NCBI RefSeq assembly: GCF_006716645.1
Contig: NZ_VFPL01000001.1
Coordinates: 2,728,001 to 2,792,000, forward strand
DNA: 64,000 nucleotides
From: Arcticibacter tournemirensis
GTDB lineage: Bacteria > Bacteroidota > Bacteroidia > Sphingobacteriales > Sphingobacteriaceae
Direction: 5' to 3'
Below are positions 4,176 through 57,376 of this stretch, one piece after another. The notes under the pieces are model-generated. The model was not told where the DNA came from, searched no databases, and saw nothing but the letters and a program-made list of their open reading frames with translations. The translations under genes and the position numbers were made by a program. Within the stretch, counting starts at the first letter, position 1. Each line of letters opens with the position of its first letter.

Positions 4176-4271
4176 AAATGAAACTCCGTATCCTTGTAAG
4201 GATATCTTAGGACTACCAGGAAATACCTGCAAAGTTTTTATAGGATTAATGGTCAAAACTGTAAAGTTTTT

Positions 4272-4760: not shown

Positions 4761-4832
4761 GAAATAAAGATACTAAACATGGGGTACCGGTTAAAGGAAT
4801 ATTTGCCCATCCTTTTCGAAGAGCGTATTCTT

Positions 4833-4932
4833 TGAAAGGCCAAGGAGATCTTAAAGGAATCATGGGTTAATCAGAATCTAAGTGAAATGTAGTCAAATAT
4901 CCGTGTCAATAAAGGATGTGAATTATTCTCAG
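4833..4932 (+). repeat. Decayed second copy of the island's leader and first codons
   Basis: This stretch resembles 985-1096, the leader and first codons of the zinc-ribbon/HTH gene. The shared core is TCAAATATCCGTGTCAATAA, preceded by GTGAAATGT. In this copy the second codon is TAG (ATG at 4887), and the match fades after about 15 codons. It looks like a scar of a second, related element or of a tandem insertion. Confidence 0.7.
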
Positions 4933-4934
4933 AT

Positions 4935-5810: not shown

Positions 5811-5814
5811 TGTA

Positions 5815-6656
5815 CTATTCTTTTATTTTGAATAGGTTCTTCATATATGATTTGGTAAACTGCAATACCTCTTCTTTTGAGTATTTAATGAGATTGTTTC
5901 GATCTCCCTTTATCAAGTTCTCTATATATCTTTGTTTTTGGTGCGCAGGTGCATCTACTCCGAACAGCTTACGCCAAAACAAATCAAACATTTCTTGGTA
6001 ATACTGGATGTTTTTTTGAACCTTTTCGCCAATAACAACATTGTTTAAAAAGTTTTTTCTTTTAGCATTTTCAAAAATTCGGAAGGTGAAACCCTCTTCG
6101 AGGTGGTTTATGTAGGATTTATAATTACCTTCTTCATTCAGCCCATAGAAGTGATTGAGGTGAATTTTATCAGAATCTTCGTAAACTTGGATAATGAAGT
6201 CGTTCATGAAAATAATGTAAGGATTTTTATCACTGGTAAACCCAACGAAATTTTCCGTATAACTGGCAGTCTCTCCAGCGGTTTGAAGATATGTTACATT
6301 GAGAGGAATAGATTTGTCGCCTGTTTTTCCTAATATGGATACCCGCATTTGCTCTAAGAAAGGATCAGGGAAATCCAGTATATCCTCGCATACAGCGCTC
6401 CTATAAATCTGGATATAAAAGAAATTTCTGACAGCGATCGGATCGGGCTCGGTGATGTTTTCAATACCGGATAGGTTATTTCGTCGGAAGCTAGGTAGTA
6501 TGTCATTTATGAACTTGTTTTCAATTTGAGAAAAGAGGTCTTCACATGTAGTGCAGAAAATATAGTCGACCGAAAACGGAATTGATTTGGCTCTTTCGAT
6601 TTCGCCGTCTGTGGGTTTTCTTCCAATGGTGGCCTCAAGGGTCAGTTCATCCAGTT
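5815..6656 (-). pseudogene. C-terminal part of an IS21-split zinc-finger-type hypothetical gene
   Basis: In frame from the IS boundary, this part encodes LDELTLEATIG, then CTTCEDLF (a second Cys-x2-Cys), and runs to KNLFKIKE. The N-terminal part lies at 9267-9447. Removing the IS21-family element plus one copy of the 9-bp repeat CATCCAGTT gives a continuous 337-residue frame. The intact protein would carry two Cys pairs, like small HNH/zinc-knuckle proteins often paired with DUF4238-type genes. Function unknown. Confidence 0.75.
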
Positions 6657-6742
6657 GGAGATTCCGGAGATGCTGACCCCGTACCGGGCATACTGACCCC
6701 CTAATTTGGTTTTGGCCCATAGATTCTGAAGGCCTGACAATT

Positions 6743-7459
6743 TTACCTTTTTTTTCTTAGACTTTCACCTTTAAGTTCAATTCTGTAAGCGGTATGTACC
6801 AGCCGGTCGAGTATGGCATCAGCAATCGTTTCTTCACCGATCACATCATACCAGCTTGCCACCGGCAGCTGGCTGGCGATGATAGTAGATTTGCGGCCAT
6901 GACGGTCTTCTATGATTTCCATCAGATCCATGCGTTGCTGCTGTTCCAGGTGAGTGAGTCCGAAGTCGTCCAGAATGAGCAGTTCCGTGCGCGAAAGCTT
7001 TTCCATAAACTTATAGATGCTCCCATCAATCCGGCTCATCTTCGTGCGCAGCAGTAACTTCTGCAGGTTATAATAAGCCACTTTATATCCCTGTGCACAA
7101 GCCTGGTGCCCCAGGGCAGAAGCCAGAAAGCTTTTACCGGCACCTGAGGCCCCGCTGATCAGAACGGCATCTCCACTGGAGAGATAAGTTCCCATGGCAA
7201 GGTCCGTAATGAGTGAACGGTCAATCCCCCTGGAGGCATCCATGTTCAGTTCTTCCACAGAAGCCCGGTAGCGGAAGCCGGCATTTTTAAGCAGACGGTC
7301 AAAGCGTTTTCCGCTGCGCTGTTCCTGTTCGGCCTGCAGCAGCAATTGTAGGCCCTCTGAGAGGTTCAGTTCGTGATGGCGGCGGGTCTCCAGCAGTACC
7401 TGCCAACTGCGGCACATTCCATGCAGGCGCAGCTCTTTGAGTTGTGTTTCGATTTGCAT
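6743..7459 (-). CDS. istB: IS21-family transposition helper ATPase IstB
   Basis: The 238-residue protein has an AAA+ core with Walker A GASGAGKS and Walker B LLILDDFG, and a DnaC-like N-terminal region rich in Arg. IstB proteins help the IstA transposase select and remodel target DNA. The chosen start (MQIETQLKEL) lies one base after the istA stop; an upstream in-frame extension is possible but overlaps istA. Confidence 0.93.
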   Translation of the reverse strand: MQIETQLKELRLHGMCRSWQVLLETRRHHELNLSEGLQLLLQAEQEQRSGKRFDRLLKNAGFRYRASVEELNMDASRGIDRSLITDLAMGTYLSSGDAVLISGASGAGKSFLASALGHQACAQGYKVAYYNLQKLLLRTKMSRIDGSIYKFMEKLSRTELLILDDFGLTHLEQQQRMDLMEIIEDRHGRKSTIIASQLPVASWYDVIGEETIADAILDRLVHTAYRIELKGESLRKKR

Positions 7460-7460
7460 A

Positions 7461-9017
7461 TTAAAAGTGAATAGTGGATTGTATATAGTATTCTTTTCCT
7501 CTGATATTGTTATGGGCAGGAAGCGGATGTTCAATGCTCTCCTCCTGCAGATAGAGCGTCATGTTGTTCTCCAGTATTTTCTGGATGGCCTTATAGGAGC
7601 AGATCCGGTGCTGCACAGCGATCCGGCAAACACGGGTGAACTTTTCTGCCTCGGTATTCCGGTGTAAACGGAACAGGCCGTCGCAGGTGCGGTACAACTG
7701 CTCTGGATAACGGTCCTGCTGAAAGATGATCTCAAGGAGGCGGTAGAGATCTTCCGACTTATAACGGGCCCGCTCCAGGTAATATTCCGGACTGCGGTTC
7801 AGCCAGGCCTGATTAGCAGAACTCAGATGTTCCTTTACCGAAGTATATCCCCCGCTGTAGCTTCTGATATGGACAGCCACCTGTTTCCCTTCAGCATAGA
7901 TAGAGACCATACTGCGGGTATAGATCACCTTTACTTTGGAACCAATCAGCGTGTAGGGAACACTGTAAAAGTGTTTCTGAACACTGACATGCCCGTTACT
8001 GGCTACCTTGGGTTCACAATAGTGTTTTAGTTCAAAGTCCTGCTGGGGCAGCTCAGAGAGTAACGGCTTTTCAGCGGCCAGGAAGCGTTCTTCCCTGCAG
8101 TAGTCCTTACGCTGCATGCGGGTCTGGTTATGCTCGCGTACTTTTTCGCTGATGGCCTGATTTAGAGAAGCCAGATCGAAGAACTGCCGGTTGCGCAGCC
8201 GGGCATACACTCTGGTATAGAGCAGCTTTACCTGGTTCTCAACCAGACTTTTATCGCGGGGACGGCCCGGTCTTGCAGGCACGACCGACATCTGATAATG
8301 ATTGGCAAAGTCTTCCAGGCTCCGGTTGACCTCCGGCTCATACCGGTCTGCCTTGACGATAGCAGACTTAAGGTTATCGGGTACCAGTACCCGGGGTACC
8401 CCGCCCAATTCTTTCAGGCAGCAGGAAAGGGCATACAGAAAGTCACCGATTCGCTGAGAGGGTACAGCCATAGCAAAAGCATAATCAGAAAAAGGAAGAC
8501 AGGCTACAAACAACTGGCAACTGATAATTTCCCCGGTCTGGCGGTCTGTATAACTGATCTGTTTGCCGGCGAAGTCGACGAACAGCTTATCGGCAGGCTC
8601 ATGGCTTAATACAGAGGTCGGCTTACGGGCAACAAGCTGCTGATGCAGATGAAAGCAGAACTGGGAGTAGGCATACCCCTGGGGAAAACCCAGAATGTAT
8701 TCATCCCACAGCAGTTTTTTAGTCATCCCTATTTTTTTAAGCTCTTTGGAGAGATATTCCAGTTTTCCTTTGAAATGAATATAACGTGGATCCTTATAAG
8801 CAGGATTACCGGAATGGAACCGGGTTTCCAGGACAGGATCCTCCAACTGAAGCAGTTCCTGTGGGTCCAGGGCAGCAGACTGAAGCTTGGCAAGATAAGA
8901 CTTCACCGTGTTCTTGCTGATGTTCAGCGTTCGTGCGATGGCCTTAATAGAATAGCCCTGGGTGTGTAAGCGTAATAGTTGTTTTATCTGACTCATGGGT
9001 CTTGGTTTTCCGGCCAT
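7461..9017 (-). CDS. istA: IS21-family transposase IstA
   Basis: The 518-residue protein begins with a helix-turn-helix (YSIKAIARTLNISKNTVKSY). A DDE/rve core follows, with acidic residues seen in VDFAGKQ, VPDNLKSA and SLVENQVK, then the C-terminal domain of IstA. It acts with IstB to cut and join the IS ends. It looks complete. Confidence 0.93.
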   Translation of the reverse strand: MAGKPRPMSQIKQLLRLHTQGYSIKAIARTLNISKNTVKSYLAKLQSAALDPQELLQLEDPVLETRFHSGNPAYKDPRYIHFKGKLEYLSKELKKIGMTKKLLWDEYILGFPQGYAYSQFCFHLHQQLVARKPTSVLSHEPADKLFVDFAGKQISYTDRQTGEIISCQLFVACLPFSDYAFAMAVPSQRIGDFLYALSCCLKELGGVPRVLVPDNLKSAIVKADRYEPEVNRSLEDFANHYQMSVVPARPGRPRDKSLVENQVKLLYTRVYARLRNRQFFDLASLNQAISEKVREHNQTRMQRKDYCREERFLAAEKPLLSELPQQDFELKHYCEPKVASNGHVSVQKHFYSVPYTLIGSKVKVIYTRSMVSIYAEGKQVAVHIRSYSGGYTSVKEHLSSANQAWLNRSPEYYLERARYKSEDLYRLLEIIFQQDRYPEQLYRTCDGLFRLHRNTEAEKFTRVCRIAVQHRICSYKAIQKILENNMTLYLQEESIEHPLPAHNNIRGKEYYIQSTIHF

Positions 9018-9266
9018 CAGTGATCTTCTTTTGTAATAAATTGATCACTAAGTATAACCAAAACCAGAATTAGAGGGGTCAGTATGCTCCGGTACGGTAT
9101 CCCCTTTAAGTCAATATCAGGGGGGCAACATGCTCCGGTACGCATTGCGCCTATCTCTCAGAGGGGGTCAGTATCCGCCGGAATGGCAGGCGTTTCTGTT
9201 GATTTAAGCAGCATCGCTATCCGCTATCCTAACCGCTTTGGAGGGGTCAACATGCTCCGGAATATC

Positions 9267-9447
9267 CATCCAGTTTTTGAAAATTGAAATCTATAAATGG
9301 ATTGGTATTATCCAGTGCGAAATATAAACCCTTTTCTCGTTCATTGACACCATTTAGATTAAGACATGAACGGATAATCGCGTCTGTTAAATAGTGTGTG
9401 TTCTTTTTGTTAGCCTCATTCTGACGACATAGTTTACAAACTGCCAT
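9267..9447 (-). pseudogene. N-terminal part of the IS21-split zinc-finger-type gene
   Basis: Starting at the ATG of MAVCKLCRQNEANKKNTHYL, this part carries the first Cys-x2-Cys and runs to FNFQKLD, where the IS21-family element begins. The matching C-terminal part is at 5815-6656. The start was chosen at the Met just before the Cys pair; an upstream extension reads as low-complexity hydrophobic residues. Confidence 0.75.
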
Positions 9448-9954
9448 GTTGTTTTTGTTCCTGACTGTGTGAATGTTAACCTGAGCGGATATTTTATTAA
9501 AGCTTGTTATTATTATGCTTATGGTAAAGTTAAGAAAATAAAGAGTAGAATATTTACAGGTTGAACACTTGGGCACAACTATTGCGAAAGTCAAAGGGAT
9601 ATTCTCATTGATCCTTTTGAAATTTGGAGGTATTTCATGGAGATCCCGTTCACTATATATTTCTGTTTTTTTTACAGGTAAAAAGTTTCAAAAATTTCTG
9701 AGGTTTCGGATCTGCCATATTTACTGGCTTCGCGCGTTTTTGAAATAATCAAGCCTTTCCTGGGAATCAGTTGATCAGTTTGAAGCTCTATGAAATATAT
9801 CTTCGGAGACGGAAGTTATATGCTTTCTGAGTAAGTCCCAAATCTTAGTAGTTATCGGTGATCATTGATCAATTTTATCAGGAGTGCATAGCTGGTAAAT
9901 TGAGGGGCGAAGTGCAGGTTTTCTACCGCAGCTGAAAGAATGTACGCTTTGCTT
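9448..9954. other. Intergenic stretch without a recognised gene
   Basis: AT-rich sequence between the radical SAM gene and the IS21-split gene. The only frames here are short and lack family features. It presumably holds the promoter of the split gene/DUF4238 operon, but I see no convincing -33/-7 pair. Confidence 0.4.
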
Positions 9955-46345: not shown

Positions 46346-47014
46346 TTAATTAAGGGCTGTTACTCCGTGCCTGGCGAACTCTTCACACAGATTAAAGGCT
46401 GTCTGGCTGCGCTGTAGGCCTGAGCCGAACATGATGGATTTCAATTTGCTTTCTTCGTCCCTGAAAGCCTTGACATTTTGAAAATACCCGGTTATCGAAT
46501 TATAAGCGCCGAACAACGTTCCTTTCGTGGTGGCCTCCTGCTGGCTCTCACTAGTAAAGGAATAATCCAGAATGGAGCTAACCACATTGTTAAAGACCGT
46601 TGATAGCTGATCTTCTTTCCCAGTCTGCAGGTTTTGCAGGACTTCTTTTGAAGGTGCCATAGCTAACTGGATCAGGCGTTTCACAGCACTATCAGTAATG
46701 CGGATTCTTGACCAGTGATTAAATAGTTCTTCCAGCTCTCCGGCTAACTGCTTGCTGATTCCTAATAATTTATGCGCCTGTTTTAATTTGTCATGCGCAC
46801 TGGCAGTATGGCGTATTTTAATGGTGTTAGCTGCGCCCTGTAGGGCAGCATTTAAAGTATTGTTGCAAACAATTCTGATAGGGGTAAATGCTGCCGTGAT
46901 GCTGCCGAACCCGTCATGGGACGTAGTTAAAAATAGATACTGCTCGATCAGATCATTCCTGCCGACCCGAATATAATCCGGTAGCTTCGCAGTAATAAAG
47001 ATGCGCTCTCCTTT
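46346..47014 (-). pseudogene. DUF932 protein gene, C-terminal part
   Basis: This part starts in frame at KGERIFITAKLPDYIRVGRND and runs to the gene end. It joins exactly to the N-terminal part (50527-50913) when the RIT element 47015-50526 is removed: GALG + KGERIF, no base lost or doubled. DUF932 proteins are phage/plasmid-like proteins of unknown role, common on conjugative elements. Confidence 0.85.
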
Positions 47015-47041
47015 GTTATGTAAAGCTTTACATAACAAAGG
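47010..47041. repeat. Perfect 32-bp palindrome at the end of RIT element 1
   Basis: CCTTTGTTATGTAAAG followed by its exact reverse complement. Its outer five bases on the left belong to the DUF932 gene and on the right to the inverted repeat. The inner 22 bp (47015-47036) are the added palindrome, with ends GTTATGT and ACATAAC. Confidence 0.9.
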
Positions 47042-47067
47042 TTATGGAAAGTAATAGATTATGTAAA
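47037..47067 (+). repeat. RIT 1 left inverted repeat (partner at 50496-50526)
   Basis: The repeat starts AAAGGTTATGGAAAG and ends GATTATGTAAA. It holds two direct ATGnAAA half-sites 17 bp apart, a likely recombinase-binding pair. All 31 bases match the complement at 50496-50526. Confidence 0.9.
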
Positions 47068-47129
47068 TTGGATTGCATTGTTGTGCTGATAACGGCATTT
47101 TTCAGCAATCCTACTTTACATTATTTAGC

Positions 47130-48158
47130 CTAAAAGTTCTTTAACCAGTCCAATAGGCTCTCGTTGTTTACCCATATTGGGACTTCCTTGTCAACGACAT
47201 TAACATAGGCCTTTTCTATCGCCTCCCGTTTCTGTTTGGAATCCACTCTCGCATACACTTCGGTTGTGGTAACCGATATATGCCCAAGAATATCACGTAT
47301 GTAGACAAGGTTGACACCAGCCTGTAAAAGGTGCATTGCTTTTGAATGGCGAAGCGAGTGGCAACTGATTTTTTCGGGGATTAGCAACTTATTGCTATCT
47401 CTGGCCATCGTTGCATACTTGTGCAAGATATGGGTAATGCCCGCCCGTGTTAGTTTTTCCCTTCGGGTATTGTAGAACAGTGGATAAGTCCCTGCATGGG
47501 TTTCCAATAATCGGTTTTTTGCCATGTAGTTTCTTAAGTGGACTACCTCTGCATCCATGAGCGGAACAATACGGGCTTTATTGCCCTTTCCTATAAGCTT
47601 GATGGTACAGGGCTTGTCCAACCTTATATCTTCAGGGGTCAGGTCTATGATTTCCTGTACACGTGCGCCCGTATCATACATCAATGCAAGCAAGGCCAGA
47701 TCCCGTATTCCCTGCCTTGTAGTCAGGTCGGGCTGGCTCAATAAAAGCCGAATTCCCTCAACGCTCAGATAGTTGATGGTGCCACGCTGGGCTTTTTTTA
47801 CTTTTATCGAAAGTATGTTGCGGCATTCTTCCAGTTGCTCTGGCCACTCATATTGCACAAACTTGAAAAAGGTATGCAACGCCGCCAACCTAACGTTACG
47901 GGTGGAAACACTACATTTCCGTACCTGCTCCAGATGGTTGAGGAAGTCAACGATACAAGCCTTGGTCAGATCACTGAACGCCAACTTTTGCGGCTTTATG
48001 CCCTTATATTCTTCCATAAAGGTAATAAGCAGGATGAATGTTATCCTGTATGATGCTATCGTATTGTTGCTCATCCCTCGTTCGGCAGGGAGATATTTGG
48101 TCAGAAAGTCCGCAAGGCTCTTGGGAAAGTCTACTGATTTAATGGCTTGCTTCATCAT
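47130..48158 (-). CDS. RIT 1 tyrosine recombinase C
   Basis: The 342-residue XerD-like protein is third in the trio. It has an N-terminal SAM-like domain (FLTKYLPAERGMSNNTIASY) and a catalytic domain with Arg in TGARVQEI, HSLRHSKAMH (His-x-x-Arg), ILGHISVTT and EVYARV (Tyr). The start MMKQAIKSV overlaps the second gene by 20 nt, so translation is coupled. All catalytic residues are present. Confidence 0.9.
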   Translation of the reverse strand: MMKQAIKSVDFPKSLADFLTKYLPAERGMSNNTIASYRITFILLITFMEEYKGIKPQKLAFSDLTKACIVDFLNHLEQVRKCSVSTRNVRLAALHTFFKFVQYEWPEQLEECRNILSIKVKKAQRGTINYLSVEGIRLLLSQPDLTTRQGIRDLALLALMYDTGARVQEIIDLTPEDIRLDKPCTIKLIGKGNKARIVPLMDAEVVHLRNYMAKNRLLETHAGTYPLFYNTRREKLTRAGITHILHKYATMARDSNKLLIPEKISCHSLRHSKAMHLLQAGVNLVYIRDILGHISVTTTEVYARVDSKQKREAIEKAYVNVVDKEVPIWVNNESLLDWLKNF

Positions 48159-49125
48159 GGATATCGGGGAACAGAAAAGGACAAACATTATTGACTTTGG
48201 TTATGATGGATGGGTACATGTCGGCGGTAAGTCGCACATATCCGTCCGTGCTGGCGATGGATTTATGGCCAAGATAAGTTGAAAGTACAGGTAGTGAATA
48301 ATAAAGATCGATACCATCCTCCGCCATTTTTGCCAACGAATGCACACTAAAGGTATGCCTCAAATCATGCACATGTGGGCCTTGACGTCTACCACGGTGT
48401 GGGATGCCAGCCTTATACAACACTTTTTTGAACCAAGAATAGGCACGTCCATTATCGCAGCAGTCTCCGTTCGGCTGTACGAAAAGCAGGTCTGTTTTTC
48501 GTGCCATGGGAAAGTTATCCCTGCAATCCATATATTGCCTAACCACATTGGCTACGGTATCGGAGATGGGAACCATCCTGTCCGTTCCGTTCTTTGTGTC
48601 CCGAAGTACAAAGTACCGTTCTTCAAGATGTACATCCCCACAGGATAGGGACAAAGCTTCGCCTATGCGCAGCCCAGTGCCATATAATACCCTGAACAAT
48701 GCGGGAAGCACCAAGACCATTGAGTTATAACAGGTGCTATGGGCGCTCAACTGGTCTGTTGCCTCAAATATGGCAGCCATTTCCTCTTTGGTGTAGATAT
48801 AAGGTGTATGGGTTGATGGCTTGATTTTCGGCAGGACTGGCAAATAAGATGGGTAGTTCAGTTTGTTCAGGTAATCACCGAACTGGCGCATGGCATGGAT
48901 ACGGTTGTACCATGTTTTGTCCGATTCGTTTGGCCGTCTGATGCACCACTCCTCACAAAGTTCCCTACTGATACCGATAGCTGTTTCTTCCCGTTCATAG
49001 ACCAATTGGTCGAATTGCATAAAAGCATATTCGACGGTCATATATTTATAACCCAGATGCCTTTTCAACGCTACAAACTCCTCGATTAAGGGCTTGTATA
49101 TACTATAGTAATTGATTGCACTCAT
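48139..49125 (-). CDS. RIT 1 tyrosine recombinase B
   Basis: The 328-residue second recombinase has GTGLRIGEAL (Arg), HDLRHTFSVH (His-x-x-Arg), YLGHKSIAS and GYVRLT (Tyr). Its start overlaps the first gene's stop by four bases (ATGA). It resembles the B gene of RIT 2 in length and in the LDLYYSLPVLSTYLGH-like stretch before the active site. Confidence 0.9.
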   Translation of the reverse strand: MSAINYYSIYKPLIEEFVALKRHLGYKYMTVEYAFMQFDQLVYEREETAIGISRELCEEWCIRRPNESDKTWYNRIHAMRQFGDYLNKLNYPSYLPVLPKIKPSTHTPYIYTKEEMAAIFEATDQLSAHSTCYNSMVLVLPALFRVLYGTGLRIGEALSLSCGDVHLEERYFVLRDTKNGTDRMVPISDTVANVVRQYMDCRDNFPMARKTDLLFVQPNGDCCDNGRAYSWFKKVLYKAGIPHRGRRQGPHVHDLRHTFSVHSLAKMAEDGIDLYYSLPVLSTYLGHKSIASTDGYVRLTADMYPSIITKVNNVCPFLFPDIHDEASH

Positions 49126-50393
49126 GATACAAACACTCCTTTCTGCTGATAGAAGGCCGGAGCAACCATTGGCACATCAAGGGCGCACTGTTTAAGCTGT
49201 TGCGTATCGACACGTAGGTAAAGCATGGTCGAAGCGGTACGGCTATGCCCCAATGCTTCTGATATTACGGGGAGCGGTGTTTTATTTTCAAGCAATCGGG
49301 CGGCAAAGCTGTGCCGCAGGGCGTGCGCTCCCTTATGCCTGTTCTTAAGAACGATGCCCGAACGGCGTATATGGACACCGATTTTTCCAGTAACATCATC
49401 AGGCGTTATCGGCTTGAACGGATAGATGTGCTGGACAAAGCAATATGGTTCATTGGATACTGGACGGGCATATTTTAGGTAATCGATAATGGCATTTCCT
49501 ACCTCGGGCAAGAGTGGAAGAACGATTTCTTTTTGGGTTTTGAACTGTACGATCTCAATGATGCCCTTGTCCCAGTTGATGTTCTCGAACTTTAGCCGTG
49601 CAATGTCAGATACCCGCAGACCAAGTTTTGCCGCCAGCAACACCAGGGCATAATCCCTTTTCCCTGATGGGTTGCCTCGGTCTATCTTTTCAATGATGCA
49701 GGCAATATCTTCGGCAGAAAAAAACGAGGGCAGCTTTGGCTGTGATTTGTAATTCGTCCGCTGTATCACATCAGAATAATCTTTATTGTGGATTTTTTCC
49801 GTGTAGAGATAGGTTAAGAAACTTTTGAGAACGCCCAATTTGGAATGGTTCGTGGCAAGAGTTGTCGGGTCAAGGCTTTTCATGAACGATACCAGATATA
49901 CCTCATTTATATCGACTATGCTTTTTACTTCTTTGCTACTCAAAAAAGTAAGAAAGCCATGCAGTGCGTTCAGATGATGATTTTGGGTAGATTTTGACAA
50001 CGCAAAAGTTGCCGCTTTGTAGCTGATAAAATCCTGCATGGCAACACCTATTTCACCTGTCAACAGTTTTGGTGGGGTTCGTCTTAATGGCGCAGTCCCG
50101 AAAAACACTTGCCCAGTAGACTGGAAAACATAAAGTGCATCCACCTTGTTAACCAAATGCCGTTGCATGCGGTCTAGGGAAGCATAATCATACTCGCCCA
50201 GCTTTGACTTAATAAACTGGTCGCCAACGGACTTATCGTAATACATTATCCCTTCCGCTGCCATAAACCGCTTTAGGGGCTTCCATATCTGCCAATATCC
50301 TCGGAGAGTATACCTGCCCCGTTGTATGGTACGGAGATGTTTTTCAAACTCATTTAAAAGTTCGTCGATGGTTTGGTTTTCTTTCATAATCAC
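49122..50393 (-). CDS. RIT 1 tyrosine recombinase A
   Basis: The 423-residue first recombinase of the trio has two core-binding-like regions in its long N-terminal part. Its catalytic domain has LGLRVSDIARL, HALRHSFAARL, ALGHSRTAS and LYLRVD. It resembles the A gene of RIT 2 (both have GNAIIDYLK before the active site). The MKENQT start two codons on is also possible. Confidence 0.9.
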   Translation of the reverse strand: MIMKENQTIDELLNEFEKHLRTIQRGRYTLRGYWQIWKPLKRFMAAEGIMYYDKSVGDQFIKSKLGEYDYASLDRMQRHLVNKVDALYVFQSTGQVFFGTAPLRRTPPKLLTGEIGVAMQDFISYKAATFALSKSTQNHHLNALHGFLTFLSSKEVKSIVDINEVYLVSFMKSLDPTTLATNHSKLGVLKSFLTYLYTEKIHNKDYSDVIQRTNYKSQPKLPSFFSAEDIACIIEKIDRGNPSGKRDYALVLLAAKLGLRVSDIARLKFENINWDKGIIEIVQFKTQKEIVLPLLPEVGNAIIDYLKYARPVSNEPYCFVQHIYPFKPITPDDVTGKIGVHIRRSGIVLKNRHKGAHALRHSFAARLLENKTPLPVISEALGHSRTASTMLYLRVDTQQLKQCALDVPMVAPAFYQQKGVFVS

Positions 50394-50526
50394 ATTATTT
50401 ATCGTTAGGCATTATTGCCGCCAACAAAATAATGTAAAGTAGAAATGAAGTTAAACCGCTGAATTTTAGAAGTTCATAGGCTTTTATAGTATGACTTTAC
50501 ATAATCTATTACTTTCCATAACCTTT

Positions 50527-50913
50527 ACCTAAAGCGCCTGCTGTCTCGTATAGAATTCCCTCTTTACCGCCTACAATGGAATCAAAAAAATCGAAAGCGT
50601 TTACATTCTGAACGACCTCGTAATCATTGCCCACTACGCCTAATACCTCGTCGTTGTCGGCTCTCACGGTTGCAAAATAGTTAGGCACTTCAATATCCGG
50701 GATCGCCTCCCAGTTGTTTGAAGCAAGGTTGTTGCCGTCGATCGTGAATAACGGCCGCTTTTCGACCATATAATCAAGCCCGGCGAATTTTATTGCTTCG
50801 GCGCTGGTAGGGTAATTCTCTATGACGGTTCCTAAACCGTGCCAAGCTTTTTCTTTCACGCTGAAAAAACTGTGTATTCCAGTGCGCTGATTGTAATTAA
50901 TATTGTGTGCCAT
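50527..50913 (-). pseudogene. DUF932 protein gene, N-terminal part
   Basis: The start MAHNINYNQRTGIHSFFSV and the motif KAWHGLGTVIENYPTSAEA are typical of DUF932. After GALG the frame enters the RIT 1 inverted repeat and stops five codons later. The remaining gene is at 46346-47014. Confidence 0.87.
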
Positions 50914-50948
50914 GTTTAAATATTTTTAAATTCATTACTGCTTTAAGA

Positions 50949-50976
50949 GAAAAAGCGCCCGCATTTGTGCGGGTGC
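50949..50976 (-). terminator. Terminator of the 50986-51543 gene
   Basis: GCACCCGCA-CAAA-TGCGGGCGC on the minus strand followed by TTTTT, ten bases after the gene's stop. Confidence 0.85.
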
Positions 50977-50985
50977 TGTAACCAT

Positions 50986-51543
50986 TCACGGTATGACTAT
51001 GCCTGCTTCGATTTCGGCAAGGCGGTTTACACACATGTGATTAACGAACTGCGCTACCGCCTGAATGATGACTGGATTTTTCGTGCTGAATTTATTCCGG
51101 TTATCGTCCTCAATCGTGAGCTGACAACCCTGATAGTAATTGCTGTCGGTCTCTTCGGCATCCTCCTTTTGGGCAATCTCGAAGCTTTCAAGGCTGTTTA
51201 TAGTGGCTAGCAGCCGGTCGCGCTGTACCTTTCTGCGGTGCAGCTCCTCCACGAGTTTGAGAGTGTTTTCAAGATTGGGGACTGCTTTCATCTCTTCTTT
51301 CAGCTCCTTTTTTGTCGGTTCTTGCTTCGTCTCCGGAGTAGCCAGTTCTGCCGGAGTGCTTGCGGGAATGGCGGCATCTGCAATTGTTTCCGGTGCTTCA
51401 GGTTCTGCCTCCTTCTTATCGAAGCCTGTATTTACAGGCAATCCGTTTACTGTTGCCTCTGCGATCTTCCCCGGTGTATCGTTTCCTATAGTGGTGTTGA
51501 TTTTTCCGTTTCCCTTGCTGCTGTTGATGACCGTCGTTTTCAT
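50986..51543 (-). CDS. Hypothetical protein of the conjugative element
   Basis: 185 residues from MKTTVINSSKGNGKINTT. The middle is low-complexity and acidic/Pro-Ala rich (EAEPEAPETIADAAIPAS). The C-terminal half is helical and polar (LKLVEELHRRKVQRDRLLATI), ending in a small conserved-looking domain. Similar genes occur in Bacteroidota conjugative elements without known role. Confidence 0.6.
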   Translation of the reverse strand: MKTTVINSSKGNGKINTTIGNDTPGKIAEATVNGLPVNTGFDKKEAEPEAPETIADAAIPASTPAELATPETKQEPTKKELKEEMKAVPNLENTLKLVEELHRRKVQRDRLLATINSLESFEIAQKEDAEETDSNYYQGCQLTIEDDNRNKFSTKNPVIIQAVAQFVNHMCVNRLAEIEAGIVIP

Positions 51544-51737
51544 GATTTTAAATTTTAATGTTATTGGATTATTGATTTTTTGCCCGTTGGGAGTATGCGG
51601 TGAACTGCGCTGTTCTACCGGTTGCGGTTTGGCGCTCAGTGGCGGGCTTCTGCCGTTCATTATTTTCATAGTGCTTGCTATTAGAAAGTCAGTCGGCAGG
51701 GCCTCCTGGCTTTTTGTTAAGCACCGCACTTTATACC

Positions 51738-51846
51738 ATCCCGGAGCAAGTCAAGGCTTTGCGAAAAAAAATACCTCGTGAGCGGAGCGAGCAGGGAAGA
51801 TTTTTTTTCAGCAAACCCGAAGGGCTGGCCTTGACTGCTCCGGGAT
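51738..51846. repeat. Long 109-nt hairpin sequence
   Basis: The outer arms ATCCCGGAGCAAGTCAAGGC and GCCTTGACTGCTCCGGGAT pair with a single bulged A. Inside, TTTGC/GCAAA and an A8/T8 pair continue the stem, and CTCG-TGAGCGGAG-CGAG caps it. It lies in a 498-bp stretch (51544-52041) with no convincing gene, so it may be an RNA, a replication or transfer signal, or a small mobile repeat. Confidence 0.7.
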
Positions 51847-52041
51847 TGTGTAGAGATTTGCTCAGCAAAAAAGCCTCCATGAAACTATTGATCGCGCGTG
51901 CTAAAACACTTTTCAAAGATTGCGAGTGGCAGATTGCGTTGCTGACGGCAAAGTCGGCCTAAACGTGGAGCTATGAAACTGTTATATGAAGAGCAAATGA
52001 ACTGCTGGAATGACGTTTTTTTTAATTTTACCAAAAAGATT

Positions 52042-52911
52042 ATGAAAGTACTGGTCACAGGTTCAGCGGGTAAACTCGGTTCAGCAGTCATGCAAAGGTT
52101 AAGGTCGGCTGGCTTGACAGCTATTGGAGCCGATCTTATCGAAAGTCCTTATACCGATGTCATTTTGGACATCAAAGACAAGGCCGGGGTACTCAACGTA
52201 TGTAGGCAGATCAACGCCGTTATCCATACTGCTGCTATCCACGGCAAACATTATGATCTTGATTATCCAAGAGAGGCATTTGTCGATACCAATATCTGTG
52301 GAACGCTGAACTTATTGAATGCCTCCGTTCAGCACCGAATCCAGCATTTTCTTTACATCAGTACTACGTCAGTCTATGGTACTGCCATGGTTGATCCCCT
52401 GCAAGCGGTTTGGGTAGATGAGTCACTTACTGAACAGCCCCGCGACATTTATGACATTACTAAACAAGCGGCGGAACAACTGTGCAAAGACTTTTTTTAT
52501 AAGGAGGGTTTGCATACATCGGTTTATCGGGTAGGCCGGTTTCTGCCGGAAGATCCCAATGTGGAAGCCAACCATCGTCTCTACAGAGGACTTGATGAAC
52601 GAGACGGGGCCGAAGCGTTGTATCTGGGGTTAAGCCACCATTTTGAAAGGTTTGAAATTTTCAATATTTCCAGCAGCAGTCCGTTTACAAAGGATGATTT
52701 AATCGGGCTTAAGAAAAATCCATCAGAAGCAATTATCAAACTTTATCCGCAAGCTGCCGAAATTTACAAGATTAACGGATGGTCATTTCCTGAAAGCATT
52801 GACCGCCTTTACGTCACTGATAAAGCCCGAGAATTATTAGGATACTCACCAAAGTATACGTTTGATTATTTATTAAAGAAGTCGGCGTCTTCTGATATCC
52901 TTCGCGTTTAG
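52042..52911 (+). CDS. NAD-dependent epimerase/dehydratase (extended SDR)
   Basis: The 289-residue enzyme has an N-terminal Rossmann motif TGSAGKLGS and the active-site pair YDITKQ (Tyr-x3-Lys), with ISTTSVYG. It acts on a nucleotide sugar or related substrate that cannot be named. The start MKVLVTGSAGK is fixed by the Rossmann motif. It is one of few plus-strand metabolic genes in the element and looks like cargo. Confidence 0.87.
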   Translation: MKVLVTGSAGKLGSAVMQRLRSAGLTAIGADLIESPYTDVILDIKDKAGVLNVCRQINAVIHTAAIHGKHYDLDYPREAFVDTNICGTLNLLNASVQHRIQHFLYISTTSVYGTAMVDPLQAVWVDESLTEQPRDIYDITKQAAEQLCKDFFYKEGLHTSVYRVGRFLPEDPNVEANHRLYRGLDERDGAEALYLGLSHHFERFEIFNISSSSPFTKDDLIGLKKNPSEAIIKLYPQAAEIYKINGWSFPESIDRLYVTDKARELLGYSPKYTFDYLLKKSASSDILRV

Positions 52912-53018
52912 TTTACTTACGCAATGACAGGTAATTTAGCTTAAGTTTAAAATCAGAGGCATATAGTTTAAGATCGCACACCGCAGTTATGATTATAGTG
53001 GTTGATGTCAACTTATCC

Positions 53019-53465
53019 TTACTTCACCTTCGGGTATACTGACTCTCCTCCATCCTGAGCCGGCCAGCTTAAAGTCCCTTTATCTATATCCAAATGAAGT
53101 ATGGTCACAGCTCCACTTATTGGCTCTGTAATGCGGAGGGTAGTATCCTGAGCCTGCAGTTCTGCAACGAAGGTTTTACCCGGGCCATAATGGTTCCATA
53201 CGCCCGCAACTTTATTAGAAGGGCGTTGAGGGTCACTTTTTTTGGCAGATGACCAGACCGCAATCTTAGCTACATCAAATTTTCCATCTTCCAGAGCCCG
53301 CACTTCTAAGGTATCCTTGAAGTAGTCAAATTCATTCTCGCCTTGTTGGGCATATTTTCCGATAATCCGTTCCGAGATTTCTTCTTTGTCCGGACCCGAA
53401 GAACAAGCGGATGTTATTAAGGATAGAGCGATAGAGGCCGTGCTCATTAATTTAATTGTTTTCAT
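53019..53465 (-). CDS. Lipoprotein, hypothetical
   Basis: 148 residues with a lipoprotein signal (SIALSLITSAC-SS). The rest is strand-rich (TLRITEPISGAVTILHLD). No family recognised. It is likely membrane-anchored in the periplasm or outer membrane. Confidence 0.7.
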   Translation of the reverse strand: MKTIKLMSTASIALSLITSACSSGPDKEEISERIIGKYAQQGENEFDYFKDTLEVRALEDGKFDVAKIAVWSSAKKSDPQRPSNKVAGVWNHYGPGKTFVAELQAQDTTLRITEPISGAVTILHLDIDKGTLSWPAQDGGESVYPKVK

Positions 53466-53599
53466 AGTTCAAGTGATTAATGATACCGGGTAAAAATACG
53501 TAATTTCTAAATTACGTACCATAGGAAAAGCTACTTGTTTGTTCTATGTCAACTTGTTAGCTTTTTGTTTCCGCCCTGGTTAGGAAGCTCTATAAACAT

Positions 53600-53628
53600 G
53601 TAAAGCACGGGTGTGTCCCGTGCTTTAC
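53600..53628. terminator. Perfect hairpin near the histone H1-like gene end
   Basis: GTAAAGCACGGG-TGTGT-CCCGTGCTTTAC, a 12-bp stem with no T-run. It lies 17 bp beyond the stop of the H1-like gene remnant and may end its transcript. Confidence 0.6.
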
Positions 53629-53645
53629 GAGAAAACAGCAGGGCT

Positions 53646-53750
53646 TTATTTCGCCTTGTTTTTAATCTCCGTTACATCTTTGCGAATCTCGGATGCAAGG
53701 GTTTTGATTGCCTGTAAGCCGTTGCGCAGGCGTGTTCCAGCGGTCTTATT
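53646..53750 (-). pseudogene. Histone H1-like gene, C-terminal part
   Basis: Encodes NKTAGTRLRNGLQAIK and continues to EIKNKAK-stop (34 residues). With the N-terminal part at 57302-57376 it forms a 59-residue histone H1-like protein typical of Bacteroidota mobile elements. The two parts join exactly in frame when RIT 2 is removed. Confidence 0.85.
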
Positions 53751-53772
53751 CTTATGTGAATATTAACATAAC

Positions 53773-53804
53773 AACAATAATGTAAACAATATGATTATGT
53801 AAAG
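53773..53804 (+). repeat. RIT 2 left inverted repeat (partner at 57270-57301)
   Basis: It starts AACAATAATGTAAAC and ends GATTATGTAAAG. Two ATGTAAA half-sites lie 17 bp apart, the same spacing as in RIT 1. Inner CTTTACATAA (53882-53891) and TTATGTAAAG (57183-57192) repeat the motif in inverted orientation. Confidence 0.9.
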
Positions 53805-53840
53805 AATCTGTTTTTTCAAGGTTCTATAAATATAAACAAG

Positions 53841-53870
53841 GGGTGCCTGGCTATGCTTGGCACCCTTTTT
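53841..53870 (+). terminator. Terminator at the left end of RIT 2
   Basis: GGGTGCC/GGCACCC stem followed by TTTTT, ahead of the recombinase genes. It would block transcription entering from outside. Confidence 0.8.
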
Positions 53871-53935
53871 CTATATGGGGCTTTACATAATTATTTGATT
53901 TAGCTTTAGGGTTTACCATTATAAATCAAGTTATT

Positions 53936-55213
53936 ATGAACAAAAAGATTAAAGAAATCTCAGAAGTCATAGAGGCATATCTTGCTGAATTGATTGACAG
54001 AGATTATTACAGGGGAACCATTAAAGACTATACAAGGGGTTGTCGAGCGATCCAGAAATGGTGGGATAAAAACGACCTCAAAGAGTTTAATGAGGAAAAT
54101 GCAGCAAGGTTTTGTGATGAAGTTATAGGTACAAGGTATCTGACTCCCACCTTAACATCGGAGCAAAAAAAGAGGCTCCGGGTTGTCAGAATGCTTCTAT
54201 CAGTATACCACAATGAAGATTTTGAGAATTATACTCCTCCGGTTGAAAAAAACCTTAAAACGGAACTCGGGGAAGTTTTCAGCAAATACATTGAATGGTG
54301 CACATTAAGTTTAAAATTAGCTCCAAACACATTGGATACCCATAAGCGGGTAGCTTTTAAGTACGATACATTTTTAAATGAAAAAGGTCTTCATTTCGAG
54401 AAAGTGTCTACCTCAAATTTTGAAGATTTTATTGCGTGCCAATCAAAATCCAATCGAATGAGGTTTAAGGCAGTTCTGCGCAATATTTATAGGTTCCTGC
54501 ACAATTCCGAAATCACAAAAGGTGATCTGTCAACACTAATCCTCAAAGAGCCACACATACACCAAGGTTCTAAACTACCAACAACTTATACCGAAGAGGA
54601 GATTAAAAAGCTGCTTCTATCAGTAGACAGAAGCACAGCTGGCGGGAAAAGAGATTATCTCATCCTACTCTTGGCCGCAGAATACGGAATGAGGGCTTCT
54701 GATATCAGGAGTCTGAGCCTTAAGCATATTGATTGGGAAACAAATACAATATCATTTAACCAGCAGAAAACTGATATACCAATATCATACCCCCTTATAC
54801 CATCTGTTGGCAATGCAATTATTGATTATCTAAAACACGGCAGGCCTCCAGAGGGTGATGCCGTGATCATCGTACGGCACGACAGCAAAAGAAAAGGTGC
54901 TCAGCTTACATCCAGTGGTATCTATTCAATTGTAGAGTCCGCTTTTAGAGCGACCAACATTGTTAATTGGAAAGAAAAAAAGCATGGCCCACATTCCTTG
55001 CGGCACAGCTTTGCTTCGAATCTTCTGAAACGTGGCACCGGTTACTACGTTATAAGTATGGCTATGGGCCATTCTTGTTCAGAAACGACCAAAGCTTACC
55101 TGCAAATTGATTTTGAACGCTTGCGAAAATGTAGCTTACCAATCCCGGATCTACATAGTTTATATTACAACAATATCGGAAAGGAGGTCAGAAATGAGCA
55201 GGCCTATCTTTAA
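53936..55213 (+). CDS. RIT 2 tyrosine recombinase A
   Basis: The 425-residue first recombinase has a catalytic domain with YGMRASDIRSL (Arg), HSLRHSFASNL (His-x-x-Arg), AMGHSCSET and AYLQID (Tyr). Similar in length and in the GNAIIDYLK stretch to recombinase A of RIT 1. The second gene starts 20 nt before its stop. Confidence 0.9.
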   Translation: MNKKIKEISEVIEAYLAELIDRDYYRGTIKDYTRGCRAIQKWWDKNDLKEFNEENAARFCDEVIGTRYLTPTLTSEQKKRLRVVRMLLSVYHNEDFENYTPPVEKNLKTELGEVFSKYIEWCTLSLKLAPNTLDTHKRVAFKYDTFLNEKGLHFEKVSTSNFEDFIACQSKSNRMRFKAVLRNIYRFLHNSEITKGDLSTLILKEPHIHQGSKLPTTYTEEEIKKLLLSVDRSTAGGKRDYLILLLAAEYGMRASDIRSLSLKHIDWETNTISFNQQKTDIPISYPLIPSVGNAIIDYLKHGRPPEGDAVIIVRHDSKRKGAQLTSSGIYSIVESAFRATNIVNWKEKKHGPHSLRHSFASNLLKRGTGYYVISMAMGHSCSETTKAYLQIDFERLRKCSLPIPDLHSLYYNNIGKEVRNEQAYL

Positions 55214-56153
55214 TTCAGTTTTTGCCAACCACATTTCTACCTTTTTGGATTTCAGAGAGAAGGGTGGTGTAAAATATATGTACCCGGACTTTTTTCATCT
55301 CAAACAACTTGATGCTTTTTTTCTCCAAGAAGAAATTACTGATATATCATTCTCTAAAGACCAGGCAATCAAATGGAAACAGCGATCAGAAGACGAATCC
55401 GTGAATGCACAGTATGATAGAATCAATTCTACAAAGAGATTCTTTGAATACCTTTTTATACAGGGGTTTCCGGTGGTTCAGCTAAAAGACATCAAGCACC
55501 CTAAGTCCAAATTCGCACCCCATATTTATACCGATGAAGAAATTGATAAATACTTCAGGGCATTGGATACTTACGAGTCGGGTAAAGATCGTAAGCATAA
55601 AATTCAGTTACCCGTCCTGTTCAGGATCATGTTATGCTGCGGCACCAGAATAACGGAAACTATCAAGATTATTAAGAAAGATGTCGACCTGGAACTGGGT
55701 ATTTTAAGGCTATCGGAAACGAAAAATGCCAAACAGCGGTACGTAGTCATGTCCGACAGCTTGTTGAGCCTTATGCAATCTTTTGCTGATAAAACATTCT
55801 ACGCCTTATCAGATAATGACTACATCTTTACATCTGTTCGGCAGAGATATCTATCAGCATCAGCAGTTAGCGGAATACACCATAAAATCTTACAGCATGC
55901 AGGTATACCGAACAGAGGAAGTGGGCGGTACGGTAAACGTGTACACGACTGGCGCCATACCTTTGCAGTGAGAGCCTTTAAGCAAATGATCGATTCAGGA
56001 GCAGATATGTATGTTGCTCTTCCGATTTTGTCGGTCTATTTGGGACACAATAACATCTATTCTACCGAACGCTATTTACGTTTGACGACTAGTATGTATC
56101 CCTATCTTAAAGAGAAGTTTGAAAAGAATCTTGACGAAATATTTGAAAGATAA
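55194..56153 (+). CDS. RIT 2 tyrosine recombinase B
   Basis: The 319-residue recombinase (start MSRPIFNSVF) has CCGTRITETI (Arg), HDWRHTFAVRA (His-x-x-Arg), YLGHNNIYS and RYLRLT (Tyr). Translation is coupled to gene A by a 20-nt overlap, and AGGAGGT-like GGAAAGGAGG lies just upstream. Confidence 0.9.
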   Translation: MSRPIFNSVFANHISTFLDFREKGGVKYMYPDFFHLKQLDAFFLQEEITDISFSKDQAIKWKQRSEDESVNAQYDRINSTKRFFEYLFIQGFPVVQLKDIKHPKSKFAPHIYTDEEIDKYFRALDTYESGKDRKHKIQLPVLFRIMLCCGTRITETIKIIKKDVDLELGILRLSETKNAKQRYVVMSDSLLSLMQSFADKTFYALSDNDYIFTSVRQRYLSASAVSGIHHKILQHAGIPNRGSGRYGKRVHDWRHTFAVRAFKQMIDSGADMYVALPILSVYLGHNNIYSTERYLRLTTSMYPYLKEKFEKNLDEIFER

Positions 56154-56158
56154 CCGCT

Positions 56159-57190
56159 ATGAAAAAAACCGATTTTGCCAGTGCTGTCCACCGTTATTTC
56201 CGCGATTATCTGATTAATGATCGTGGTTGTTCAGAACGAACGATAGAAACCTACAGATATGCATTTATCCAATTTATTGATTTTATGGAAAATACCTTTC
56301 GGATAAGTCCCGAAAGAATTGAACTTAGACATATTGACCATAAACATATTCAAGCCTTTCTTACCTGGCTGGAATGCGAGAGAAAAGTCTCAATTGCAAC
56401 ACGGAATCAACGGCTTGCTGCGTTTAAAGGCTTCGCTGCCTTTTTGAAATACGATTATCCCGAATGTATTGAGACGGCCATACAAATCCACAACATTAAA
56501 TTGAAAAAATCTCAGCCAAAAGAGATATCCTACCTTAAGCCCGAAGGCATAAAGCTGCTATTGTCGCAAATCAAAACAACTTCGCAAGCTGGCAGACGAG
56601 ACTTTACAATGTTTACATTACTTTATGCTACCGGGGTAAGAGTCAGTGAATTAATTGAAATAAAAGGACGGGATGTTTCAATAAGCGCACCAAAACACAT
56701 AGCTATATATGGAAAAGGCGGCAAGATAAGGCATGTACCGATAATAAAGCACCTATCATCTGTTCTTGAAAAGCATTTAGACGAAAATCATTCTATGCTA
56801 CCTCAAAACCTTGACAGATATGTTTTTGTGAACCATTCAAGCGAAAAGTTTACCAGACAAGGCATAAATCACCTCTTGTCCAAGTATGCAAATATGGCGC
56901 GGAAAATCGACCCCACACTTGTGCCAAAAGATTGTAGCCCGCATAAAATACGGCATTCCATGGCAATGGCCATGGTCGAAAACGAAACCGATCTAATTAT
57001 AATTAGGGACTTTTTGGGCCATTCCAGCGTACAAACAACTGAAATATACGCCAAGCTATCTGCTTCACGCCGAATGAAAGTGATTGAGGCGGCGAGTAAA
57101 GAAATAGTGCCGACAGAGGACGCACTTTGGGTGAGAAATACTTCGCTTAAAGACTGGTTAAAATATATGACGAACCCAAAAGTTATGTAA
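56159..57190 (+). CDS. RIT 2 tyrosine recombinase C
   Basis: The 343-residue XerD-like recombinase has TGVRVSELIE (Arg), HKIRHSMAMAM (His-x-x-Arg), FLGHSSVQT and EIYAKL (Tyr), and ends with a VRNTSLKDWLKY tail much like recombinase C of RIT 1 (NNESLLDWLKNF). It starts five bases after gene B. Confidence 0.9.
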   Translation: MKKTDFASAVHRYFRDYLINDRGCSERTIETYRYAFIQFIDFMENTFRISPERIELRHIDHKHIQAFLTWLECERKVSIATRNQRLAAFKGFAAFLKYDYPECIETAIQIHNIKLKKSQPKEISYLKPEGIKLLLSQIKTTSQAGRRDFTMFTLLYATGVRVSELIEIKGRDVSISAPKHIAIYGKGGKIRHVPIIKHLSSVLEKHLDENHSMLPQNLDRYVFVNHSSEKFTRQGINHLLSKYANMARKIDPTLVPKDCSPHKIRHSMAMAMVENETDLIIIRDFLGHSSVQTTEIYAKLSASRRMKVIEAASKEIVPTEDALWVRNTSLKDWLKYMTNPKVM

Positions 57191-57206
57191 AGAACTCGTT
57201 TTAGTA

Positions 57207-57235
57207 GAGGGTGTCCGAAATAGCCAGACACCCTC
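57207..57235 (+). terminator. Terminator of the RIT 2 operon
   Basis: GAGGGTGTC/GACACCCTC stem with an 11-nt loop and a short T-rich tail, 16 bp after the last recombinase gene. Confidence 0.8.
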
Positions 57236-57301
57236 TTATTATGTTTATGGTACCGCGAAAGAGCAGTTACTTTACATAATCATATTGTTTACATTATTGT
57301 T

Positions 57302-57376
57302 CCCTTTTTGATAAAAAGCCTCTGCGTCTTTCTCAATTGAACTGACGAGTTCTTTTACTTTTTGAAATTTTTCCAT
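57302..57376 (-). pseudogene. Histone H1-like gene, N-terminal part
   Basis: Encodes MEKFQKVKELVSSIEKDA followed by EAFYQKG (25 residues) up to the RIT 2 right repeat. The C-terminal part is at 53646-53750. Too short for many gene finders, but the N-terminus is typical of the family. Confidence 0.85.

Follow-up and report, generated by a model that had tools for sequence, protein, structure and literature searches.

Two RIT elements of Arcticibacter tournemirensis suggest a symmetric double attachment site with 6-bp coupling blocks

We analysed a 64,000-nucleotide stretch of the Arcticibacter tournemirensis genome (contig NZ_VFPL01000001.1, positions 2,728,001 to 2,792,000; hereafter the window, numbered from its first letter) that carries two RIT elements, RIT1 with its genes on the minus strand and RIT2 with its genes on the plus strand, both of which had been predicted from the sequence and proved to be real. 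Comparison with related elements leads us to favour, with considerable confidence, the reading that a palindrome standing beside one terminal repeat of each element belongs to a symmetric double attachment site with 6-bp coupling blocks. RITs are known already; what appears to be new is an account of their attachment site, for which the comparative sequence evidence is strong.

RITs have been described as three adjacent tyrosine recombinase genes, occupying about 3.5 kb and bounded by terminal inverted repeats, and insertions in radC and in transposase genes are known (PMC2864759, PMC3414803; these and the papers below are cited from their accessible portions). One report notes a '28-9 bp inverted repeat and overlapping palindromic sequence flanking ritA and ritC, respectively' (PMC3414803); in the accessible text of both papers the palindrome has no stated function, and no fixed spacing, target-side rule, 6-bp coupling or two-core reading is given. 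RIT mobility is reported there as not demonstrated (PMC3414803), and a table of 2023 lists target specificity, empty site and movement of RITs as not tested (PMC10214605). Within the open literature searched we found no account of a two-core or fixed-side rule; Ricker 2013, outside that scope, may describe more.

Structure of the elements and their targets

RIT1 (3.48 kb) interrupts a minus-strand DUF932 gene, the 3' part of which lies at 46346-47009 (Pfam DUF932 1.2e-53 for the frame 46346-47038) and the 5' part at 50528-50913 (3.1e-09, frame 50509-50913). In plus-strand coordinates its left end reads from the host through CCTTTG (47010-47015), the palindrome TTATGTAAAGCTTTACATAA (47016-47035, two abutting half-sites TTATGTAAAG and CTTTACATAA) and CAAAGG (47036-47041) into the repeat TTATGGAAAG...TTATGTAAAT, whereas its right end reads from the repeat CTTTACATAA...CTTTCCATAA through CCTTTA (50522-50527) directly into the host. 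We refer to the 6-mer between host and palindrome as O, to that between palindrome and repeat as I, and to that at the palindrome-free end as T. The left repeat proper (47042-47068) comprises an outer half-site at 47042-47051 and an inner one at 47059-47068, and the right repeat proper (50495-50521) an inner half-site at 50495-50504 and an outer one at 50512-50521. The palindrome, which is perfect over 32 bp if the flanking 6-mers are included, occurs once in the 64 kb when up to 3 mismatches are allowed, with 0 occurrences expected from shuffles. Between the repeats lie, all on the minus strand, ritC (47130-48188; Pfam Phage_integrase 7.9e-31; XerD as nearest solved structure by sequence), ritB (48139-49125; 1.5e-26) and ritA (49122-50393; 1e-29).

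The same block order is seen in RIT2 (3.52 kb), which interrupts a minus-strand Hc1-like (histone H1-like) gene with its 3' part at 53646-53745 and its 5' part at 57303-57376: TTATTC (O, 53746-53751), the palindrome TTATGTGAATATTAACATAA (53752-53771, imperfect, with 9 of 10 pairs), CAACAA (I, 53772-53777), the left repeat (53778-53804; outer half-site 53778-53787, inner 53795-53804), plus-strand ritA (53936-55213; Phage_integrase 1.5e-26), ritB (55194-56153; 1.8e-23) and ritC (56159-57190; 3.9e-31), the right repeat (57270-57296; inner half-site 57270-57279, outer 57287-57296) and, at the far end, TTGTTC (T, 57297-57302). On joining the flanks, uninterrupted frames of 351 aa (DUF932) and 59 aa (Hc1, 4.5e-24) are obtained, with Pfam matches that span both junctions, so the predicted restoration of the target frames is borne out.

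The shared plan of palindrome, inverted repeats and three recombinases that was originally predicted holds for both elements and, as described below, across the surveyed family; so do the two half-sites per repeat, 17 bp apart and resembling TTATGnAAAG, and the palindrome's position, which is 3' of the operon in RIT1 and 5' of it in RIT2. The predicted lengths need revision. Perfect inverted repeats of 31 bp (RIT1, 47037-47067 and 50496-50526) and 32 bp (RIT2, 53773-53804 and 57270-57301) do enclose the three genes, but the repeat proper is 26-27 bp and the remainder is target-like; likewise a palindrome is present in both, but it measures 20 bp, not 22 bp.

All six window recombinases have the Phage_integrase domain (Pfam), and the R box, HxxR box and GH...Y were found in each on reading the translations by eye; a regular expression found LGH...Y in five of the six, RIT2 RitA having MGH...Y instead. 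The catalytic R, H-x-x-R, H and Y, present in RIT1 RitB, are invariant among 14 aligned RitB sequences. The rit genes were named from their order and length, as no RitA, RitB or RitC subfamily model was among the Pfam or NCBIfam matches. Where RITs are expected to have gene overlaps of 4-8 bp, RIT1 ritA and ritB overlap by 4 bp and RIT2 ritB and ritC are separated by a 5-bp gap; the relations of the other pairs vary with start choice.

A third element of the same genome, RIT3, which has 84% identity to RIT1, occupies the homologous codon in a different DUF932 gene; the DUF932 flanks of the two loci are about 71% alike where alignable, i.e. below the identity of the elements. The palindrome and inner 6-mer of RIT3 are identical to those of RIT1, whereas the outer blocks differ, being CCGTTA and CCGTTG. 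The end of the RIT1 repeat, CCTTT, is thus CCGTT in RIT3 and therefore target-like, which shows that the claim of no target duplication was wrong: a target-like 6-mer stands at both host junctions of RIT1 (CCTTTG/CCTTTA), RIT3 (CCGTTA/CCGTTG) and RIT2 (TTATTC/TTGTTC). Excision would have to lose one 6-mer, and the frame stays intact whichever copy is kept.

A family-wide palindrome architecture

Relatives of RitB came from 399 genomes of the family, of which 15 had a match, from one scan of a species-level genome collection (at least 80 loci) and from viral contigs (the best 31 of 80 loci). The 132 loci entered were reduced to 86 by removing 10 duplicates, 28 loci without an acceptable repeat pair, six in which a half-site was misplaced or uncertain (L079 and L098, with palindromes at both ends, and the unclear cases L101, L102, L157 and L158) and two late duplicates, one each from L137 and L162, an identical pair, and from L123 and L125, which overlap at 99.6%. 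The identical pair is counted twice in the random-position rate, the frame-shift control, the target consensus and codon-phase figures, and the arm-match and spacer-length figures. L076, read by eye, and L077, which gave no repeat, stand outside the counts. In eight of the 86 elements a flank is unreadable, leaving 78 with both readable.

A palindrome of 19-20 bp, placed 6 bp outside the terminal repeat, is found at one end only in 69 of these 78 elements (5' in 37, 3' in 32), at both ends in four and, by the criterion applied, at neither in five, two of the last (L156 and L163) showing a degenerate palindrome on sight. Only 0.7% of random positions pass the palindrome criterion. With a palindrome-repeat spacer of 6 bp, 80 of 160 ends pass, while no other length between 0 and 13 exceeds 8 of the 160. 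Plasmid records gave 25 with a relative; among five that were fetched and read by eye, four have the palindrome at one end (5' in pHG1, pTiS4 and a Rhodococcus plasmid, 3' in a Rhizobium plasmid) and pBPHY02 has none. Homologous RITs without a palindrome, which the original prediction had named as speaking against it, thus exist but are a minority (5 of 78, plus pBPHY02). To judge from this survey, the palindrome architecture is family-wide and tightly patterned.

L059 (G604, 3374-9481) is a RIT1-like element in DUF932 with about 2 kb of extra DNA near its palindrome end; its repeats went unpaired in detection because this DNA splits the element. L079, on a Ferruginibacter metagenome-assembled genome contig, is also RIT1-like, and its flanks are one DUF932 side in inverted copies with a palindrome at each; it may be explained by a population in which both orientations are mixed, or by an assembly join. 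In L075/L148 (Pedobacter sp. L105) ritB is split, the repeats lie inside longer inverted similar flanks, and a palindrome is visible at neither end.

Origin of the palindrome

The comparative evidence that follows shows the palindrome to be element-borne. One and the same palindrome recurs in near-identical copies found at different sites, namely four scored copies and a fifth in G692, L108 and L114 of Bacteroides salyersiae (99.97% identical), L118, L120 and L121 of Parabacteroides gordonii (99.6-100%), and L162 and L184 on viral contigs (99.97%). The palindrome arms match the inner half-sites of their own element at 8.29 of 10 bases, compared with 7.34 when paired with other elements, and are closer to inner than to outer half-sites in 43 cases against 18, with 9 ties (32 against 15 by distinct lineage). 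This preference for inner-type arms is suggestive of two binding types, but not strongly so.

Intact sites were compared for a pre-existing palindrome, as the original prediction had proposed. It is missing from L296, whose sequence is 100.000% identical to the joined flanks of RIT L175 along 1206 bp, and from L360, L361 and L362, whose identity to those of RIT L160, with the junction included, is 98.8-99.6%. DUF932 matches occur in 161 genomes, with all 29 fetched loci spanning the RIT1 site intact; Hc1 matches occur in 86, with 24 of the fetched loci spanning the RIT2 site, two of the alignments being slightly gapped at the 6-mer. No palindrome is present at the site in 44 viral contigs with an intact L162-type site. 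Exact-pattern searches gave no empty sites of L177, L174 or L181. The candidate empty site G692:5632830 was rejected, as it is the fifth RIT copy of that genome.

Fixed palindrome side and free gene orientation

When targets were grouped into families by eye from the joined translations, nine families proved to hold both 5'- and 3'-palindrome elements, and in all 36 of their elements the palindrome keeps to one side of the target. These are IstB at ELKGES (6 elements), IstB Walker A (5), IS66 (2), IstA (3), DDE transposases around RWxIEVF (3), RadC (2), phage portal (8), TopB (3) and amidoligase (4, with one of the identical pair dropped); the IstB Walker A insertions fall in two registers one codon apart, with both palindrome kinds in each. 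L108 and L114 add a tenth family: their joined targets encode proteins that are 47% identical, and the homology passes through the junction in one direction. This brings the count to 38 of 38 elements. For L181 the automatic choice of frame was antisense and was corrected from the translation. The DUF932 and methylase families are uninformative in this respect because they hold only 3' palindromes.

Near-identical copies give the same picture at close range: L108/L114, L118 compared with L120 and L121, L162/L184 and G692a/G692c have opposite gene orientations and the same palindrome side, and their joined targets align in one direction across the junction. Three of these sets (L108/L114, L118 compared with L120/L121, and L162/L184) have an asymmetric palindrome, and in all three the copy at the other end is reverse-complemented when read toward the adjacent repeat; that is, the palindrome keeps one constant orientation relative to the element genes.

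With respect to the joined targets in general, a frame-shift control gave the longest through-frame at shift 0 in 35 of 64 elements, about 13 being expected were the five shifts equal; the control is only moderate because long antisense frames interfere. Of ten joined targets compared with Pfam, eight have domain matches that span the junction, while those of IstA (rve) and the portal protein end before it. Target strand and reading phase are the same in 39 of 58 readable cases, and across families the targets share only a weak consensus, which nowhere exceeds 0.25 bit. On reading 64 joined targets by eye, we observed that many RITs are placed within codons of conserved motifs, often those of an active site, in genes of mobile elements or phages, including IstB Walker A, IS66, IstA, RadC HNHPSG, TopB EKPSVA, DNA methylase, reverse transcriptase GCPQGS, phage portal and amidoligase. 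This apparent choice of conserved codon motifs is reminiscent of homing elements.

The 6-bp blocks as coupling sequences

The three 6-mers of an element are related. On average 4.84 of 6 bases agree between T and the reverse complement of O, against a mean of 1.63 for shuffled pairs (2.26 at most in 5000 shuffles) and 1.10 for the uncomplemented control; the two are identical in 25 of 69 elements. The average is 4.55 for I with T and 4.52 for the reverse complement of O with I, compared with about 1.63 for shuffled pairings. In the 39 of 58 elements with a through-frame of at least 120 aa in which base 1 of the 6-mer, with the frame taken from the T side, is at a third codon position, mismatches between T and the reverse complement of O number 16 at position 1 and 14 at position 4, both of them third bases of codons, compared with 6, 4, 2 and 1 at positions 2, 3, 5 and 6. 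Intact DUF932 and Hc1 alleles vary mostly likewise, and all 6-mers of RIT1, RIT2 and RIT3 occur among them: CAAAGG, the inner 6-mer of RIT1, is the commonest allele at its site (9 of 29 intact DUF932 loci), and CAACAA, that of RIT2, is a natural Hc1 allele (5 of 24). In this the 6-mers resemble allelic variants of the target gene family.

The blocks also change where the palindrome does not. L108 has GCTACG as I and ATTACG as the reverse complement of O, whereas L114 has ATTACG as I and GCTACG as the reverse complement of O, an exact swap, and the inner block can differ between near-identical elements at 99.69% identity (CCGTGA in G671, AAAAGA in G692e). In Tn916 a short crossover sequence of the previous site travels with the element, and an element-carried crossover sequence that differs between insertions is what the RIT 6-mers appear to be. 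The 6-bp blocks behave as coupling sequences, with no claim that RITs belong with Tn916.

Close empty sites bear on which block is native. The empty site of L175 carries its T (AGCATT), and L178, another RIT at the same site, has the same T and a different O; the empty sites of L160 carry its T (GCACTA) in three of three cases, the reverse complement of its O being CCACTA. In these three elements donor-type 6 bp thus stand at one junction and the target's 6 bp at the other; L162 and L184 are contrary or unclear. It is likely that T is native and O is brought by the element, but the rule is not strict, as would be expected if mismatched crossovers were repaired either way.

A proposed mode of insertion

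A tyrosine recombinase core site usually consists of two inverted half-sites around a short spacer; the Xer-type core has a 6-bp spacer, and XerD, XerA and XerH are among the nearest solved relatives of the Rit proteins. Each RIT terminal repeat supplies one outer and one inner recombinase half-site and the palindrome two more, back to back, such that a palindrome arm, a 6-mer and the neighbouring outer half-site make a 10-6-10 core site. So much of the anatomy, like the constant palindrome side, the palindrome-free empty sites and the kinship of the 6-mers, is read directly from the sequences. We propose that the moving form, which we infer to be a circle, would read inner-outer-[6 bp]-half|half-[6 bp]-outer-inner, i.e. 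two complete cores side by side, so that RITs would differ from the Xer-type arrangement in having two abutting cores, each completed by a terminal repeat. Insertion would join one core to a 6-bp crossover in the target, the exact crossover position being likewise conjectural, and the used core would be split between the host junctions, while at the palindrome end the unused one would survive whole. The symmetry of the double site should make either core usable; the choice of the 5' or 3' core would set the direction of the genes, the palindrome landing on a constant side of the target. The near-equal split of 37 to 32 suggests no strong core preference. After insertion T would usually be the target's own 6-mer, O would have been brought by the element and I would be part of the unused core. 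RitA has been reported to have two core-binding domains (PMC8138268), and we speculate that these might bridge the paired half-sites 17 bp apart.

The full proposition goes further, and we hold it with somewhat less assurance, as the better bet: that the double site consists of two abutting cores with 6-mers of former targets, that insertion occurs in both orientations with the palindrome side fixed at a codon-phased conserved motif, often that of another mobile element, and that the unused core records an earlier insertion. If so, RITs have an attachment site that combines free element orientation with fixed site polarity, and target history can be read from the 6-bp blocks. The double-core reading makes exact predictions for the circle junction, orientation and scar that can be tested by PCR, and it gives annotators exact RIT ends.

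Several alternatives can account for part of these results. Both orientations at homologous targets might arise by insertion in one direction and later in-place flipping through the inverted ends, the palindrome staying put, and the inner core and the palindrome-free end are indeed inverted copies of one another; such flipping predicts, however, that an asymmetric palindrome remains unchanged toward the adjacent repeat, whereas it is reverse-complemented in all three informative sets, a result that fits two cores on a circle and makes flipping quite improbable. The original prediction proposed that the palindrome may itself be a by-product of recombination, like the coupling sequences of Tn916. 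Its presence at one end only, on a side that varies, would suit this, and the adjoining 6-mers do behave so; but the palindrome is constant in the near-identical copies compared, at different sites, and co-varies with the element's own half-sites, and close empty sites lack it. The comparison with coupling sequences therefore stands for the 6-mers, which change instead, and fails for the palindrome, for which a by-product origin has very little left to recommend it. That the palindrome is part of the target, RITs seeking palindromic sites, would account for its location between host and repeat; we regard this as scarcely credible given its absence from L296, L360-L362, the 29 DUF932 and 24 Hc1 alleles and the 44 L162-type viral contigs.

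A more serious rival, unlikely as the whole explanation, is copy-out, strand-biased movement like that of SE elements, in which one strand is exchanged, the donor stays, and the palindrome is a hairpin or replication feature with no second core. In its favour, the 6-bp footprint is shared with SE elements (PMC9345347), folding is possible for a perfect palindrome, and some genomes hold several near-identical RIT copies. Copy-out alone, however, leaves unexplained the 6-bp spacers flanking the palindrome, its resemblance to half-sites of the element and the fixed side despite insertion in either orientation; copy-out and two cores could both hold.

Other results weigh against the double-core reading itself. 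Four elements have palindromes at both ends and three are clearly without one, and only two of the four are explained: in G614 and L084 both flanks are homologous copies of one target side, as expected if these were recombinants of two oppositely oriented copies, whereas L138 has no such flank homology and the flank of L142 is too short. In the three without (L119, L130 and L133) the 6-mers of the two ends are mismatched, which fits rearranged copies. The circular junction was not found in the A. tournemirensis genome, and three viral-contig matches to the junction pattern are ordinary palindrome ends; nor did the literature searched contain experiments on RIT movement. The assignment of T to the target and O to the element draws on close empty sites of two independent targets. 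The empty sites closest to L184 (98.6% and lower) have GGTACA, its T and reverse-complemented O both being GGTCCA, and the nearest of L162 (93%) match O, not T; among the 44 contigs with an intact L162-type site, GGTACA occurs in 18 and GGTCCA in 3. L118 and L121 also fit an element-carried T in place of an element-carried O, unless one capture step is added.

Comparison with other mobile elements

A close parallel is with SE elements (SE-6283, SE-6945), which like RITs have tyrosine recombinases, inverted terminal motifs, a 6-bp spacer (in the circle joint), and donor 6 bp at one junction with target 6 bp at the other (PMC9345347), the 6-bp rule having been shown experimentally in that case. 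The SE circle joint is a single C-6bp-C' site with no intervening palindrome in the accessible description (PMC9345347), unlike the joint that we propose for RITs, and SE elements and GInts differ from RITs in having four conserved genes, of which two encode tyrosine recombinases in the SE case. The gene set of SE elements, intA-tfp-intB-srap, is not present in the window RITs, in which three recombinase genes and no further conserved gene were found between the repeats; RITs, then, work like SE elements but are not members of that group. Tn554 also carries over 6 bp of donor flank; it has two tyrosine recombinases and TnpC, and a palindromic double core is not described for it in the accessible text (PMC10214605).

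The likeness to Tn916 concerns the blocks only. Tn916 is an integrative and conjugative element with one integrase and Xis. In RITs the coupling-like blocks are, by comparison, 6-mers on both sides of a constant palindrome.

Further features of the window elements

RIT1 has a subterminal inverted pair (47106-47126 and 50427-50447) with CTTTACATTA-like half-sites, possibly an additional arm-type site; similar subterminal inverted pairs were seen in several other RITs. In RIT2, hairpins with stems GGGTG...CACCC lie just inside both terminal repeats (53820-53876 and 57201-57240), within a 94-bp inverted similarity of 80%; since a T run follows the left hairpin, they may insulate the operon against outside transcription. 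With the DNA of both elements as queries, no plasmid copies similar to RIT1 or RIT2 were found. In three relatives, DUF932 and Hc1 genes lie within about 2-4 kb of one another (G685:C2:34380/36959, G480:C1:2561147/2564861 and G458:C5:82943/84804), and RIT1 and RIT2 may therefore have hit two neighbouring genes of one accessory module.

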